In this document: piece after piece, positions 12,975 through 20,318 of the stretch | Position numbering within the stretch: position 1 is the first letter of the stretch | Layout: each line of letters opens with the position of its first letter | Virus record (IMG/VR): IMGVR_UViG_3300037502_000187 | Coordinates: 1 to 20,318 of that record | Length of the DNA stretch: 20,318 nt | DNA from: a virus | Direction: 5' to 3' (one strand) | Notes under the pieces: model-generated | What the model saw: only the letters and a program-made list of their open reading frames with translations | The model's database searches: none | Told to the model about the DNA's origin: nothing | Translations under genes and position numbers: made by a program

Positions 12975-13733
12975 ATGCACTATTACCAGTTCAACATTGG
13001 TGACTATCAAAGTCACACTTCTCACCTTTCTGACATTGAGGATTTAGTCTACAGGCGTTTGCTTGATTGGTACTATCTCCACGAATGTCCAATTCCTCTT
13101 GATGAAGCTGAAGTATCTAGGCAAATAAGGATGCGTTCGCATACCGAAAGCATTGCAATCGTATTGCGAGAGTATTTTGTTTATACTGATTCTGGTTGGA
13201 TACATAACAGAGCAAACAAGGAAATAGCCAAAGCTGACGAGAAATCTGAGAAGGCTAGTGCTTCTGCTAAAGCCAGATGGAGTAAGAAAGATGCGAACGC
13301 ATTGCCAACGCAATCCGAAAGCAATGCTACACATAACACATTACCCATTACACAAGACACAAAACCCATTAAAGAGAACAAGAAAGGCTCTCGCCTATCT
13401 CAAGATTGGTTTCTTACTAAATCTTTAGGTGATTGGGCTACTCAAGAAAGACCTGATTTGGATGTTCGTCAAGTTGCTGAACAGTTCAAAGATTATTGGA
13501 TTGCTCAACCTGGTCAAAAAGGTGTGAAGTTGGATTGGGATGCTACTTGGCGTAATTGGGTGAGAAACACAAAAGCAGTTAAGGCTAATCCCGCAGACAT
13601 TGTGAGGCTCACAGTTCCATCAAAGAATGAGCCTGATCCCGCATTAGAAAAGATTAAAGCTGACGAAAAGAAGGCCACACCAATGCCTGACCATATTCGC
13701 AAATACATTGCAGAAGTAGTGAGGAAGGCATGA
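12975..13733 (+). CDS. DUF1376 (YdaU-type) phage replication protein (252 aa)
   Basis: The N-terminus MHYYQFNIGDYQSHTSHLSD followed by EDLVYRRLLDWYYLHECPIP is the DUF1376 signature found in phage and prophage replication-initiation proteins. A linker with polar low complexity (about residues 105-140) leads to a second helical domain, RLSQDWFLTKSLGDWATQER with DYWIAQPGQKGVKLDWDATW and NWVRNTKA, which is typical of the C-terminal replisome-organiser part. I use ATG 12975 rather than the TTG at 12963. The ribosome site is weak and may be structured. The end overlaps the Mom-like gene by four bases (ATGA). A helicase or primase partner is not in this window. Confidence 0.8.
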   Translation: MHYYQFNIGDYQSHTSHLSDIEDLVYRRLLDWYYLHECPIPLDEAEVSRQIRMRSHTESIAIVLREYFVYTDSGWIHNRANKEIAKADEKSEKASASAKARWSKKDANALPTQSESNATHNTLPITQDTKPIKENKKGSRLSQDWFLTKSLGDWATQERPDLDVRQVAEQFKDYWIAQPGQKGVKLDWDATWRNWVRNTKAVKANPADIVRLTVPSKNEPDPALEKIKADEKKATPMPDHIRKYIAEVVRKA

Positions 13734-14344
13734 AAGTCTTGCCGATTAACACATTTGAAGTTGAGCCTTGGTTATTGAAAAAACACTATGCAAAGCGAAT
13801 GTGTCCAGTTTCATATGCTTTTGGACTTTACATTGATGAACAATTAGTTGGTGTTGTAACTTATGGCATGCCAGCAAGTCCTAATCTTTGCATGGGCATT
13901 TGTGGTTTTGATTACAAAGACAAAGTGTTAGAACTAAATAGGCTTTGTTTAAATGATGGCGTAAAAAATGGCGCTTCTTTTTTGGTAAGCAAGAGTTTAC
14001 AAATGTTGCCAAAACCAACAGTCGTTGTTTCTTATGCTGATACAGCAATGGGACATGTTGGATATATTTATCAAGCAAGTAACTTTTTGTTTACTGGAAC
14101 AACTAAAGAACGCACAGATATGGCTGGTGGATACGGAAAACATAGTAGACACAGTTTTGGAAATTCTGAGATAAGAGTAAACAGAAGTGCAAAACATCGA
14201 TATGTTTATTTTGTTGGGACTAAATCACAAAAGAATAACTTAATTAAACAATTGAATTATGAGATTCTTCCGTATCCCAAAGGCGATACCCAAAGATATG
14301 ACGCTGGAACTACTGTAAAAACTCAACAACTTTTATTCGCATGA
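13730..14344 (+). CDS. Mom-like DNA adenine modification protein (204 aa)
   Basis: Sequence blocks match the phage Mom family as I know it: LLKKHYAKRMCPVSYAFGLY, QLVGVVTYGMPAS, LELNRLCL (Arg71), VVVSYADTAMGHVGYIYQAS (Asp104, Tyr114), a late HRYVYFVG and a closing EILPYPKGDTQRYD. Phage Mu Mom, a GNAT-like acyltransferase, converts adenine in DNA to N6-carbamoylmethyl-adenine and so blocks many restriction enzymes. The Arg, Asp and Tyr positions look like those important in Mu Mom, though the alignment is by eye. It is ATGA-coupled on both sides, within an operon that also holds a C5 methyltransferase. Confidence 0.8.
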   Translation: MKVLPINTFEVEPWLLKKHYAKRMCPVSYAFGLYIDEQLVGVVTYGMPASPNLCMGICGFDYKDKVLELNRLCLNDGVKNGASFLVSKSLQMLPKPTVVVSYADTAMGHVGYIYQASNFLFTGTTKERTDMAGGYGKHSRHSFGNSEIRVNRSAKHRYVYFVGTKSQKNNLIKQLNYEILPYPKGDTQRYDAGTTVKTQQLLFA

Positions 14345-14454: not shown

Positions 14455-14667
14455 ATGGCATATAGCCGAAAAACAATATCCAATGAGAGCGACAGAGTTG
14501 TTCTTGAGAAAGCCGAGGCAAGGGAGATGTTCCGAACTTGGCAGACAAACCAAGATAACGACTTTGTTCGTGCCAGGCTTGAGCGTTGCGAAAGAATCTA
14601 TGGAACTGGAGCAAGAGATCGAGTCCGTTTTTATATGCGTCAAATGAAAGAAGGACAAATTGAATGA
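14455..14667 (+). CDS. 70-aa hypothetical protein upstream of the methyltransferase
   Basis: The product is a charged, helical protein beginning MAYSRKTISNESDRVVLEKA. Its conserved-looking end NDFVRARLERCERIYGTGAR continues to a basic RFYMRQMKEG stretch. There is no membrane or metal motif. The high Arg/Lys content would allow nucleic-acid binding. Its stop (14665-14667) overlaps both the TTG start of the methyltransferase (14660) and an ATG (14664) in the +1 frame, and its final AAGGA is the ribosome site for both. Function unknown; perhaps an accessory of the modification genes. Confidence 0.6.
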   Translation: MAYSRKTISNESDRVVLEKAEAREMFRTWQTNQDNDFVRARLERCERIYGTGARDRVRFYMRQMKEGQIE

Positions 14668-15544
14668 GTTGGCTTTATTCGCGGGTGCTGGTGGAGGAAT
14701 ACTTGGGGGACATCTCCTCGGATGGAGAACAGTCTGTGCAGTCGAGTGGGAGCAATACCCAGCTAGCGTACTGTGCGCCCGACAAAATGACGGGCTTCTC
14801 CCGCCTTTCCCGATTTGGGATGATGTACAAACCTTTGACGGAAAGCCTTGGCGAGGAATTGTTGATGTCGTATCTGGCGGATTTCCGTGCCAAGACATCT
14901 CAGTCGCAGGAAACGGAGATGGACTTGACGGACAGAGATCAGGAATGTGGCGAGAAATGGCACGGATTATTGGCGAGGTTCGACCAAGATTCGCATTTGT
15001 GGAGAACAGTCCAATGCTCGTTACTAGAGGACTTGAACGAGTCCTTGCAGACCTTACCTCAATGGGGTATGACAGTCGGTGGGGAGTTATATCTGCTGCC
15101 GACATTGGTGCAAAACATAAACGAGAACGAATCTGGATTGTGGCTAACACCAACAGTTATGGACGGACTTCCACCAAGAAATCCAGAAGCCTTGGAACGG
15201 CAATATCAGAACAACAGGAAGGGCAGAACAACTCATGCAACCTTGAGGGAACAAGTTGTTTATCCACCACCGAAAGAGATGTTTCCAACTCCAACAATGA
15301 GAGATTACAAAGGAGCAAATGGATTCGAGACAACAAAAAAGAAAATTTCGGAGGGTTTGCGAGCGCACATGGGTCAACTTCCAAACGCAATCCAACATTT
15401 GGAACAGAAGCCGATTGGTGGCACATTGAACCCAATGTGGGTCGAGTGGCTGATGGGGTGGCCGCTCGGGTGGACAGACTTAAAGCCATTGGAAACGGAC
15501 AAGTCCCACTCTGTGCAGCAACCGCATGGAGAATCTTGAAATGA
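14660..15544 (+). CDS. DNA (cytosine-5) methyltransferase (294 aa)
   Basis: This enzyme transfers a methyl group from SAM to C5 of cytosine. Visible motifs are I LFAGAGGGILGGHLLGW (residues 6-22), IV GFPCQDIS (catalytic Cys77), VI FVENSP (113-118), VIII GAKHKRERIWIVA (150-162), and IX/X VDRLKAIGNGQVPLCAATAW near the end. The start is TTG 14660, four bases after AAGGA; no ATG precedes motif I. The target-recognition stretch (about 163-255) is unusually short, polar and Ser/Asn-rich (NTNSYGR, SNSNNERLQR). It is double-coded with the nested +1-frame ORF at 14865-15539. The stop overlaps the RusA start (ATGA). With the Mom-like protein it probably guards phage DNA from host restriction. Confidence 0.9.
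   Translation: MNELALFAGAGGGILGGHLLGWRTVCAVEWEQYPASVLCARQNDGLLPPFPIWDDVQTFDGKPWRGIVDVVSGGFPCQDISVAGNGDGLDGQRSGMWREMARIIGEVRPRFAFVENSPMLVTRGLERVLADLTSMGYDSRWGVISAADIGAKHKRERIWIVANTNSYGRTSTKKSRSLGTAISEQQEGQNNSCNLEGTSCLSTTERDVSNSNNERLQRSKWIRDNKKENFGGFASAHGSTSKRNPTFGTEADWWHIEPNVGRVADGVAARVDRLKAIGNGQVPLCAATAWRILK
14865..15539 (+). CDS. Nested +1-frame protein inside the methyltransferase gene (DFRAKT-type, 224 aa)
   Basis: This ORF lies wholly within the C5 methyltransferase gene. I start it at ATG 14865, which has GAGGA seven bases upstream; the frame is also open back to ATG 14664 (291 aa). Motifs are MSYLADFRAKTSQSQE, WRTVQCSLLEDL, TLPQWGMTVGGELY, LWLTPTVMDGLPP, MFPTPTMRDYKG and LNPMWVEWLMGWPLGWTDLK. 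I recognise this set from phage proteins of unknown function often annotated near C5 methyltransferases (memory only). DFRAKTS is the +1 reading of the PCQD-motif DNA, and the C-terminal block is the +1 reading of motif X. It may be a true overprinted partner, or a conserved by-product of the methyltransferase frame. Confidence 0.55.
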   Translation: MSYLADFRAKTSQSQETEMDLTDRDQECGEKWHGLLARFDQDSHLWRTVQCSLLEDLNESLQTLPQWGMTVGGELYLLPTLVQNINENESGLWLTPTVMDGLPPRNPEALERQYQNNRKGRTTHATLREQVVYPPPKEMFPTPTMRDYKGANGFETTKKKISEGLRAHMGQLPNAIQHLEQKPIGGTLNPMWVEWLMGWPLGWTDLKPLETDKSHSVQQPHGES

Positions 15545-19306: not shown

Positions 19307-19334
19307 TATTGACACCTATTGAATTGAAAAAATA

Positions 19335-19654: not shown

Positions 19655-19674
19655 GTTGACACCTATTAAAAGTT

Positions 19675-19790: not shown

Positions 19791-20012
19791 ATGGGCAGAC
19801 CATCAAAACCAGATACCCGATATTTCCAGAGAACATTGTCAGACCCTCAAAGAATAGCATTGTTGGCTGCTGGTAAAGGTAACTTATGCCGTGGCTTTGA
19901 GAACATGATTGACCTATACAGTTATGCCCATAACCAAGGGTACAGACCTGGTATGTCATTGAGTATTTTAAATATAGAGATCGCGGGTAAAGAGACAGCC
20001 CTTAATGAGTGA
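19791..20012 (+). CDS. Small putative DNA-binding protein (73 aa)
   Basis: I use ATG 19791 (AGGTGG five bases upstream) rather than the GTG at 19782. The protein begins MGRPSKPDTRYFQRTLSDPQ, with an AT-hook-like GRPSKP. A strand-helix-helix pattern follows, ending CRGFENMIDLYSYAHNQGY, which would suit a ribbon-helix-helix repressor. It ends with a short acidic tail. It is transcribed away from the GP88 operon, with several palindromes between them, so autoregulation and control of the divergent operon are plausible. The family call is tentative. Confidence 0.5.
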   Translation: MGRPSKPDTRYFQRTLSDPQRIALLAAGKGNLCRGFENMIDLYSYAHNQGYRPGMSLSILNIEIAGKETALNE

Positions 20013-20047: not shown

Positions 20048-20135
20048 ACGGATAGGTAAGACTGGTAAACCAAAACATAAAGGTAACCCTAAAAAGGTAT
20101 CACGATAAAGGTGCTTCAAAGACTCTCACCACTTA

Positions 20136-20172
20136 GTTATAAAACATAACCAATTTAGTTATGACCCATAAC
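20136..20172. promoter_or_regulatory. Paired 15-bp palindromic operator, GTTAT-N5-ATAAC twice
   Basis: GTTATAAAACATAAC (20136-20150) and GTTATGACCCATAAC (20158-20172) have identical inverted arms and unlike centres, and repeat with a period of 22 bases, about two helical turns. Each is preceded by TTA. This is the layout expected of a cooperative dimer-binding repressor ahead of the gene at 20269. Confidence 0.65.
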
Positions 20173-20192
20173 GATTGGTAGGTTGGATTGAT

Positions 20193-20218
20193 GGGGGGGA
20201 GGGGGTTGGTTGGGTTGG
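20193..20218 (+). other. G-quadruplex motif upstream of the last gene
   Basis: The + strand reads G7-A-G5-TTGGTT-G3-TTGG. Four runs of three G can be drawn with loops of 1, 1 and 6 bases, which meets the usual quadruplex rule. A C-rich run at 20236-20243 (CCCCACCC) could pair with it instead. Such G-rich tracts are rare in this AT-leaning window. Confidence 0.6.
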
Positions 20219-20268
20219 TAGATATTTGTGGTACACCCCACCCTCAAAAAAAGCTAAAAAGGAAACAA

Positions 20269-20318
20269 ATGAAAACAACACTAAAGCGTGGACGAGGAAG
20301 ACCAAAAGGAAGCGTCAA
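20269..20318 (+). CDS. N-terminus of an AT-hook-like protein (3' partial)
   Basis: AAAAAGGA five bases or so before ATG 20269 starts a gene cut by the window end. Its first residues, MKTTLKRGRGRPKGSV, contain the AT-hook core GRGRPKGS, which binds the minor groove of AT-rich DNA. The same kind of start also occurs in some phage small terminase subunits and DNA-binding proteins. With only 16 codons visible no choice can be made. Confidence 0.5.
   Translation, partial: MKTTLKRGRGRPKGSV

Follow-up and report, generated by a model that had tools for sequence, protein, structure and literature searches.

What do two short palindromes do just upstream of the packaging genes of an uncultivated phage, and which protein, if any, reads them? 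The window, by which we mean the whole stretch of DNA analysed, is a 20,318-bp fragment of a phage contig (IMG/VR record IMGVR_UViG_3300037502_000187) that ends 50 bases into its last gene, and the palindromes lie close to that end. Based on our analysis, we propose that the pair is one member, called cassette A here, of a set of exchangeable operators that would gate the terminase/late region for proteins probably not encoded by the phage. We put the probability of this reading at a little over 40%.

The palindromes and their surroundings

The two sites, GTTATAAAACATAAC at 20136-20150 and GTTATGACCCATAAC at 20158-20172, were read directly from the sequence. As the first-pass annotation of this DNA had described, both are exact copies of GTTAT-N5-ATAAC, with identical arms and unlike centres, and they start 22 bp apart. 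They are intergenic, between a gene for a 73-aa protein and the gene at the position of the small terminase gene (terS), after one conserved block and just before another:

19791-20009, + strand: conserved 73-aa gene upstream of the array, whose product was the candidate ligand of the first-pass annotation.
20107-20132, + strand: conserved left block, AAAGGTGCTTC...CTCTCAC, which precedes the first cassette in relatives.
20134-20152, no strand: cassette A site 1, T-N-GTTAT-AAAAC-ATAAC-N-A (core 20136-20150).
20156-20174, no strand: cassette A site 2, T-N-GTTAT-GACCC-ATAAC-N-A (core 20158-20172).
20175-20192, + strand: short remainder of the array; most relatives have extra AGGGTAAACCCT and CTGT-N8-ACAG sites here, which are absent from the window, so that its array is the twin A alone.
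20193-20243, + strand: conserved right block, GGGGGGGAGGGGG ... TAGATATTTGTGG ... C-rich; a candidate core for packaging/cleavage or regulation that the distant relative L087 also has.
20269-20318, + strand: start of the terS-position gene, MKTTLKRGRGRPKGS..., which the record truncates.

By its position, the cut gene at 20269 is the predicted small terminase gene: in relatives, the gene at this place encodes 121-123 aa and is followed directly by a 419-aa large terminase (TerL) and a portal protein. The terS-position protein sequence gave no significant family match.

Scanning the whole record, a check that the first-pass annotation had suggested, revealed no exact copy beyond the pair; dinucleotide-shuffled sequences contained 0.02 copies on average, and 0 of 100 shuffles reached 2. 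With up to 2 mismatches allowed, the rest of the record is at background (14 found against 9.4 expected, all of these others carrying 2 mismatches). Exact copies in 20 related contigs of 25-37 kb are also nearly all inside this one array, the sole stray being at 10362 of contig G170. Among 52 distinct A sites in relatives, the centre is variable and the ten arm bases are practically invariant (the first G varies in 4 of 52); since the search demanded a left arm of GTTAT or ATTAT and a right arm of ATAAC, the other nine arm bases are invariant by selection, and independent support for the arms comes from the spacer test. In that test, GTTAT-Nk-ATAAC occurred within arrays at k=5 exclusively (20 and 10 copies in two groups of phages described below), with none at any other k from 0 to 14 and about 0.1 in shuffles, which supports the earlier description of an operator-like site with fixed arms and a free centre. 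Conservation in the 52 sites also takes in one flanking base at either end, giving T-N-GTTAT-N5-ATAAC-N-A, a site of about 19 bp. The arm changes are one-sided, for example ATTAT...ATAAC, which speaks for a protein site rather than an RNA hairpin, and the RNA reading is among the less supported ones. The A palindromes are very probably real protein-binding sites. Their phasing is preferred, not strict: neighbouring pairs (n=17) are 22 bp apart in 13 cases, 23 bp in 3 and 42 bp in 1, and although 22-bp twins recur, single copies are common, many relatives having one copy alone. The end of the window, used as a DNA query, found no match among deposited phages, and a search of the open-access literature found no paper with the motif in the written forms tried.

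Elsewhere in the window, an exact 12-mer, TTGACACCTATT, stands ahead of two leftward genes (19309-19320 and 19656-19667), with weaker copies at other places; these are probably ribosome-binding sites, perhaps more. Two full-length ORFs of 294 and 291 aa overlap in different frames on the + strand (14660-15544 and 14664-15539). The 294-aa product matches C-5 cytosine methylase (PF00145, phrog_363), and for the 291-aa product the match is to a different phage DNA methyltransferase family (phrog_1008); because both match methyltransferase families, some 870 bp seem to encode protein in both frames. Close by, at 13730-14344 (+), lies a DNA modification gene for a Mom family protein (PF25680, E 1e-36).

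Exchange of cassettes among related phages

Relatives were found in IMG/VR with the 73-aa protein (76 loci) and with the terS-position protein (the best 80 of 559 loci). About 100 related phages, uncultivated and from fresh water, have a hypervariable array of dyad-symmetric sites at the same spot: the intergenic flanks are conserved, and the middle is made up of short elements, symmetric or repeated, that combine in many ways. The order begins with a cassette in slot 1 and continues with CTGT-N8-ACAG-like and AGGGTAAACCCT sites; a conserved G-run block separates these from terS. Five types of slot-1 cassette were distinguished:

Cassette A: GTTAT-N5-ATAAC, single or twin.
Cassette B: AATGAGAATCATTCGCATT, Fur-box-like.
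Cassette C: ATGC-N7-GCATAACC.
Cassette D: CTTAACATAA repeats.
Cassette E: AGGACAWT in tandem.

Slot 1 was scored as one of these types in 97 of 98 terS loci, and the remaining one (L063) reads as a variant of B. The first-pass annotation had held that absence of the motif from related phages would count against an operator. Most relatives do lack A, yet another palindrome or repeat occupies the same place. The CTGT-N8-ACAG-like sites are found in 68 of 95 arrays in the window's group and in 41 of 43 in a second group. Because loci were picked by similarity and the metagenome contigs that carry the arrays are often broken in this region, the cassette frequencies are not population frequencies.

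Spacing is as strict for the other elements. CTGT and ACAG are separated practically only by N8 (50 and 34 copies in the two groups; the exceptions, in the first, are 3 copies at N0 and 1 at N7), ATGC and GCAT occur at N7 (18 and 24 copies), AGGGT and ACCCT at N2 (88 and 46 copies), and GAAT and ATTC peak at N1 (67 and 20 copies), with fewer than 1 in shuffles. The cassette patterns were written after the sequences had been seen, and the spacer test, run on those same arrays, is the main guard against over-reading. Strict spacer lengths are the signature of dimer binding sites, and each cassette would be an operator for dimeric DNA-binding proteins.

The second group was found by a scan for twin A sites and a search with its small terminase. 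Its phages have another terminase pair (TerS of 147 aa, TerL of 464 aa), for which the sequence search gave no link to TerS or TerL of the window's group, and still have, ahead of terS, the elements of the window's group in an unchanged order; in L171, L173 and L174, the loci examined, the array lies between a leftward gene and the rightward terS. Since these phages have GP88-like and other genes in common with the window while the packaging modules differ, the two groups are, to judge from gene content, mosaic relatives, and shared ancestry of the array itself is possible. Relative to terS, the AGGG repeats and a homopolymer run have opposite orientations in the two groups. In a third contig, L005 (TerS of 175 aa, TerL distantly related to that of the window's group, E about 1e-25), three A sites at 22-bp steps and one more lie just upstream of terS.

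Some further loci are recorded here as separate observations. The 46,225-bp contig G174, which carries L173, encodes the 464-aa TerL and also has a partial TerL of the 419-aa type (83% identical) at one of its ends; it is either a chimera or a phage with two packaging modules. Two relatives of the L005 TerS (L322 and L323) have no A and, judged by eye, a different palindrome-like element before a G-rich block upstream of terS, as if cassette replacement of the same kind were happening there. Twin GTTAT-N5-ATAAC sites with AT-rich centres also occur in a setting without an adjacent terminase, beside a Fur-box-like AATGAGACTCATTCTCATT (L176, 7058-7095; L177, 1493-1530).

How do the cassettes relate to the descent of the neighbouring gene? 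On a terS tree of 98 tips, slot-1 type requires at least 39 changes, against an average of 41.7 (36-45) for shuffled labels, so cassette type is not detectably linked to terS descent. Identical 330-nt terS genes stand beside different cassettes (B in L130, D in L140 and L144; C in L119, B in L120). In the nearest relatives of the window, L012 and L013, the right block and the last part of the 73-aa gene are closely similar to the window's, and A is exchanged for B. That at least five cassette types exchange at one array spot upstream of terS is nearly certain. Such extreme mosaicism, with very frequent swaps uncoupled from terS descent and cassettes common to different phage groups, would suit a recombination hotspot or neutral or selfish palindromic elements to which no protein binds. 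Neutral elements would not be expected to hold their arms and spacer lengths while the centres drift, nor to leave a slot-1 cassette in every complete array scored, and we consider this explanation decidedly unlikely.

Candidate readers of the sites

Two neighbouring phage proteins were considered as specific readers of the cassettes. TerS is rejected in this role because one and the same terS gene can stand beside different cassettes, and the same cassettes are found with TerS proteins that are dissimilar. The other is the 73-aa protein, which the first-pass annotation, calling it putatively DNA-binding, had placed on a cooperative repressor operator. Its gene adjoins the array, and the 22-bp spacing prevailing among A pairs would fit cooperative binding. 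Against this, the 39-aa core of the window's protein is identical in L012 and in L088/L013, which have cassette B and no GTTAT palindrome, and another identical core was found with A, B, C and D cassettes, making the protein unlikely as a specific ligand. Phages in which no 73-aa neighbour is obvious also have this site lexicon ahead of terS. The protein matched no family in Pfam or PHROG, and its predicted model (mean pLDDT 69.8) matched no DNA-binding fold in a search of the PDB, so that it is at most a putative DNA-binding protein. An operator bound by this neighbour is therefore scarcely credible, and it is highly likely that neither the 73-aa protein nor TerS reads the cassettes specifically.

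Could another phage protein do so? Lambdoid operators and mycobacteriophage stoperators are short palindromes, sometimes in phased tandem, that are dispersed and co-vary with the phage repressor. The arrays described here resemble them in having short palindromes, some in phased tandem, but there is essentially one array per genome rather than copies at several promoters, and neither a repressor nor an integrase was recognised in 21 contigs. No phage protein family tracked cassette type in these contigs, many of them incomplete, in a test that scores the presence of families and is blind to subtle changes of specificity within one; operator type thus did not co-vary with a phage-encoded repressor, and a linked phage gene as reader was rejected on this evidence. 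The readers would not be phage-encoded in linkage with the cassette. Host regulators are the simplest candidates, because cassette B has the form of a Fur box and the downstream sites that of a LexA box.

Fur boxes are interrupted palindromes. Cassette B (AATGAGAATCATTCGCATT and similar) has this form, GAAT-N-ATTC, and matches sites in one Burkholderiales genome, where the Fur-form AATGMGAATNATTCKCATT occurs in 3 copies against 0 in the control, one of them a short way ahead of an ORF whose translation resembles a TonB-dependent receptor. Unlike ordinary Fur boxes, B substitutes at the same spot for A, whose sequence has no likeness to a Fur box. The LexA-form TACTGT-N8-ACAGTA was several-fold above a read-backwards control in 60 Burkholderiales genomes, and the CTGT-N8-ACAG dyad with strict spacing is present in the relatives' arrays and absent from the window's. 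In phage GIL01, host LexA boxes are reported to control phage promoters (PMC4551915, PMC6182141). Many of our arrays are like that promoter region in carrying sites of the form bound by the host SOS repressor; they differ in that the LexA-like sites belong to a mixed, exchangeable array before terminase genes, and the window has none. We found no report of Fur or LexA boxes at phage terminase genes in the open-access literature.

The same comparison gave nothing for A, which was found in 4 of 150 Burkholderiales genomes, with a higher control, and in 4 of 274 Gammaproteobacteria sampled, and nothing for cassette C in the bacterial genomes sampled. A was accordingly rejected as a common host operator in these two groups, and host ligands are supported for B and the LexA-like sites only. 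These samples, of 60 to 274 genomes, were drawn around an uncertain host group: a close TerL was found in a single bacterial-genome record, a betaproteobacterial MAG contig that may be a binned phage, and a TerL search of 399 Burkholderiales found none apart from that one MAG genome.

Packaging site, replication origin or operator gate

The strongest rival to an operator gate is a packaging region, in which the array and G-run block form a packaging-initiation site (pac/cos or terminal-repeat) and the cassettes position or bend DNA for the terminase. The pac/cos regions of SPP1, P1 and lambda contain repeated sites close to the small terminase gene, which are read by the phage's own terminase. 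The present arrays resemble these regions, and the terminal repeat of Sinorhizobium phage phiM5, in having repeated sites near the small terminase gene beside a conserved core. They always lie close upstream of terS, and no other non-coding part is as well conserved as the G-run/TAGATATTTGTG block, which even L087 has. In phiM5, whose TerL is 56% identical to that of our second group, the annotated left direct terminal repeat runs up to position 357, immediately ahead of the terminase gene and beside a C-run/G-run dyad and a CATATATCTGC element; phiM5 lacks such palindromes, however, its block lies between a short ORF and terL, and the resemblance of its element to TAGATATTTGTG is a visual impression. 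Ends of contigs are concentrated in the array, but they are spread over it, as expected from repeats shared among strains, with no single cut point, which speaks against a physical genome end in the array. In contrast to SPP1, P1 and lambda, the cassettes change while TerS is constant, and dissimilar TerS proteins have cassettes in common; this absence of co-variation concerns the cassettes and not the G-run block, and a packaging site fails to explain it unless the cassettes serve another protein. We regard the packaging reading as somewhat doubtful.

The array could also be a replication origin, with repeated AGGGTTT as iterons and the G-run forming an R-loop or quadruplex. Such repeats at steps of about 15 bp, together with a G-run, do occur in one intergenic region per genome. 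In six near-complete contigs, however, no GC-skew switch was seen at the block, and the primosomal and single-strand annealing genes are elsewhere in the window. An origin at this place is very improbable; like the neutral-element and RNA readings, it is less supported than a gate or a packaging site.

We return to the operator gate that we prefer. Its mechanism is the least certain step of the explanation: bound proteins would keep the terminase/late region shut while phage copies are few. Replication would then multiply the sites beyond the number of repressor molecules, and the terminase/late region would be released. A timer of this kind would work with any abundant repressor, and the interchangeability of the cassettes beside unchanged phage proteins would thereby be explained. 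Several results sit poorly with a gate: A and C are not enriched in the sampled bacteria, no sigma-70-like promoter was found near the window's array, and the inversion of the AGGG repeats and homopolymer run between the two groups is odd for a fixed promoter architecture. Whether the array is a transcriptional gate rather than a packaging element is, in our estimate, about an even call. The full form of the model, a replication-coupled timer built from borrowed host repressors whose cassettes are a pool traded among phages with unrelated packaging machines, is unlikely as it stands.

Operators usually co-evolve with their repressor. Here, five kinds of site replace one another ahead of an unchanged set of genes, and phages that have different terminases use them again, with no corresponding change seen in those phage proteins that were examined. 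Should host regulators read the sites, the physiology of the host, such as its iron status or DNA damage, would act on the packaging or late stage of freshwater phages that are abundant and uncultivated; should the array be a packaging site, its accessory sites evolve without dependence on the terminase. In both cases, the cassettes supply sequences with which their binding proteins can be sought.
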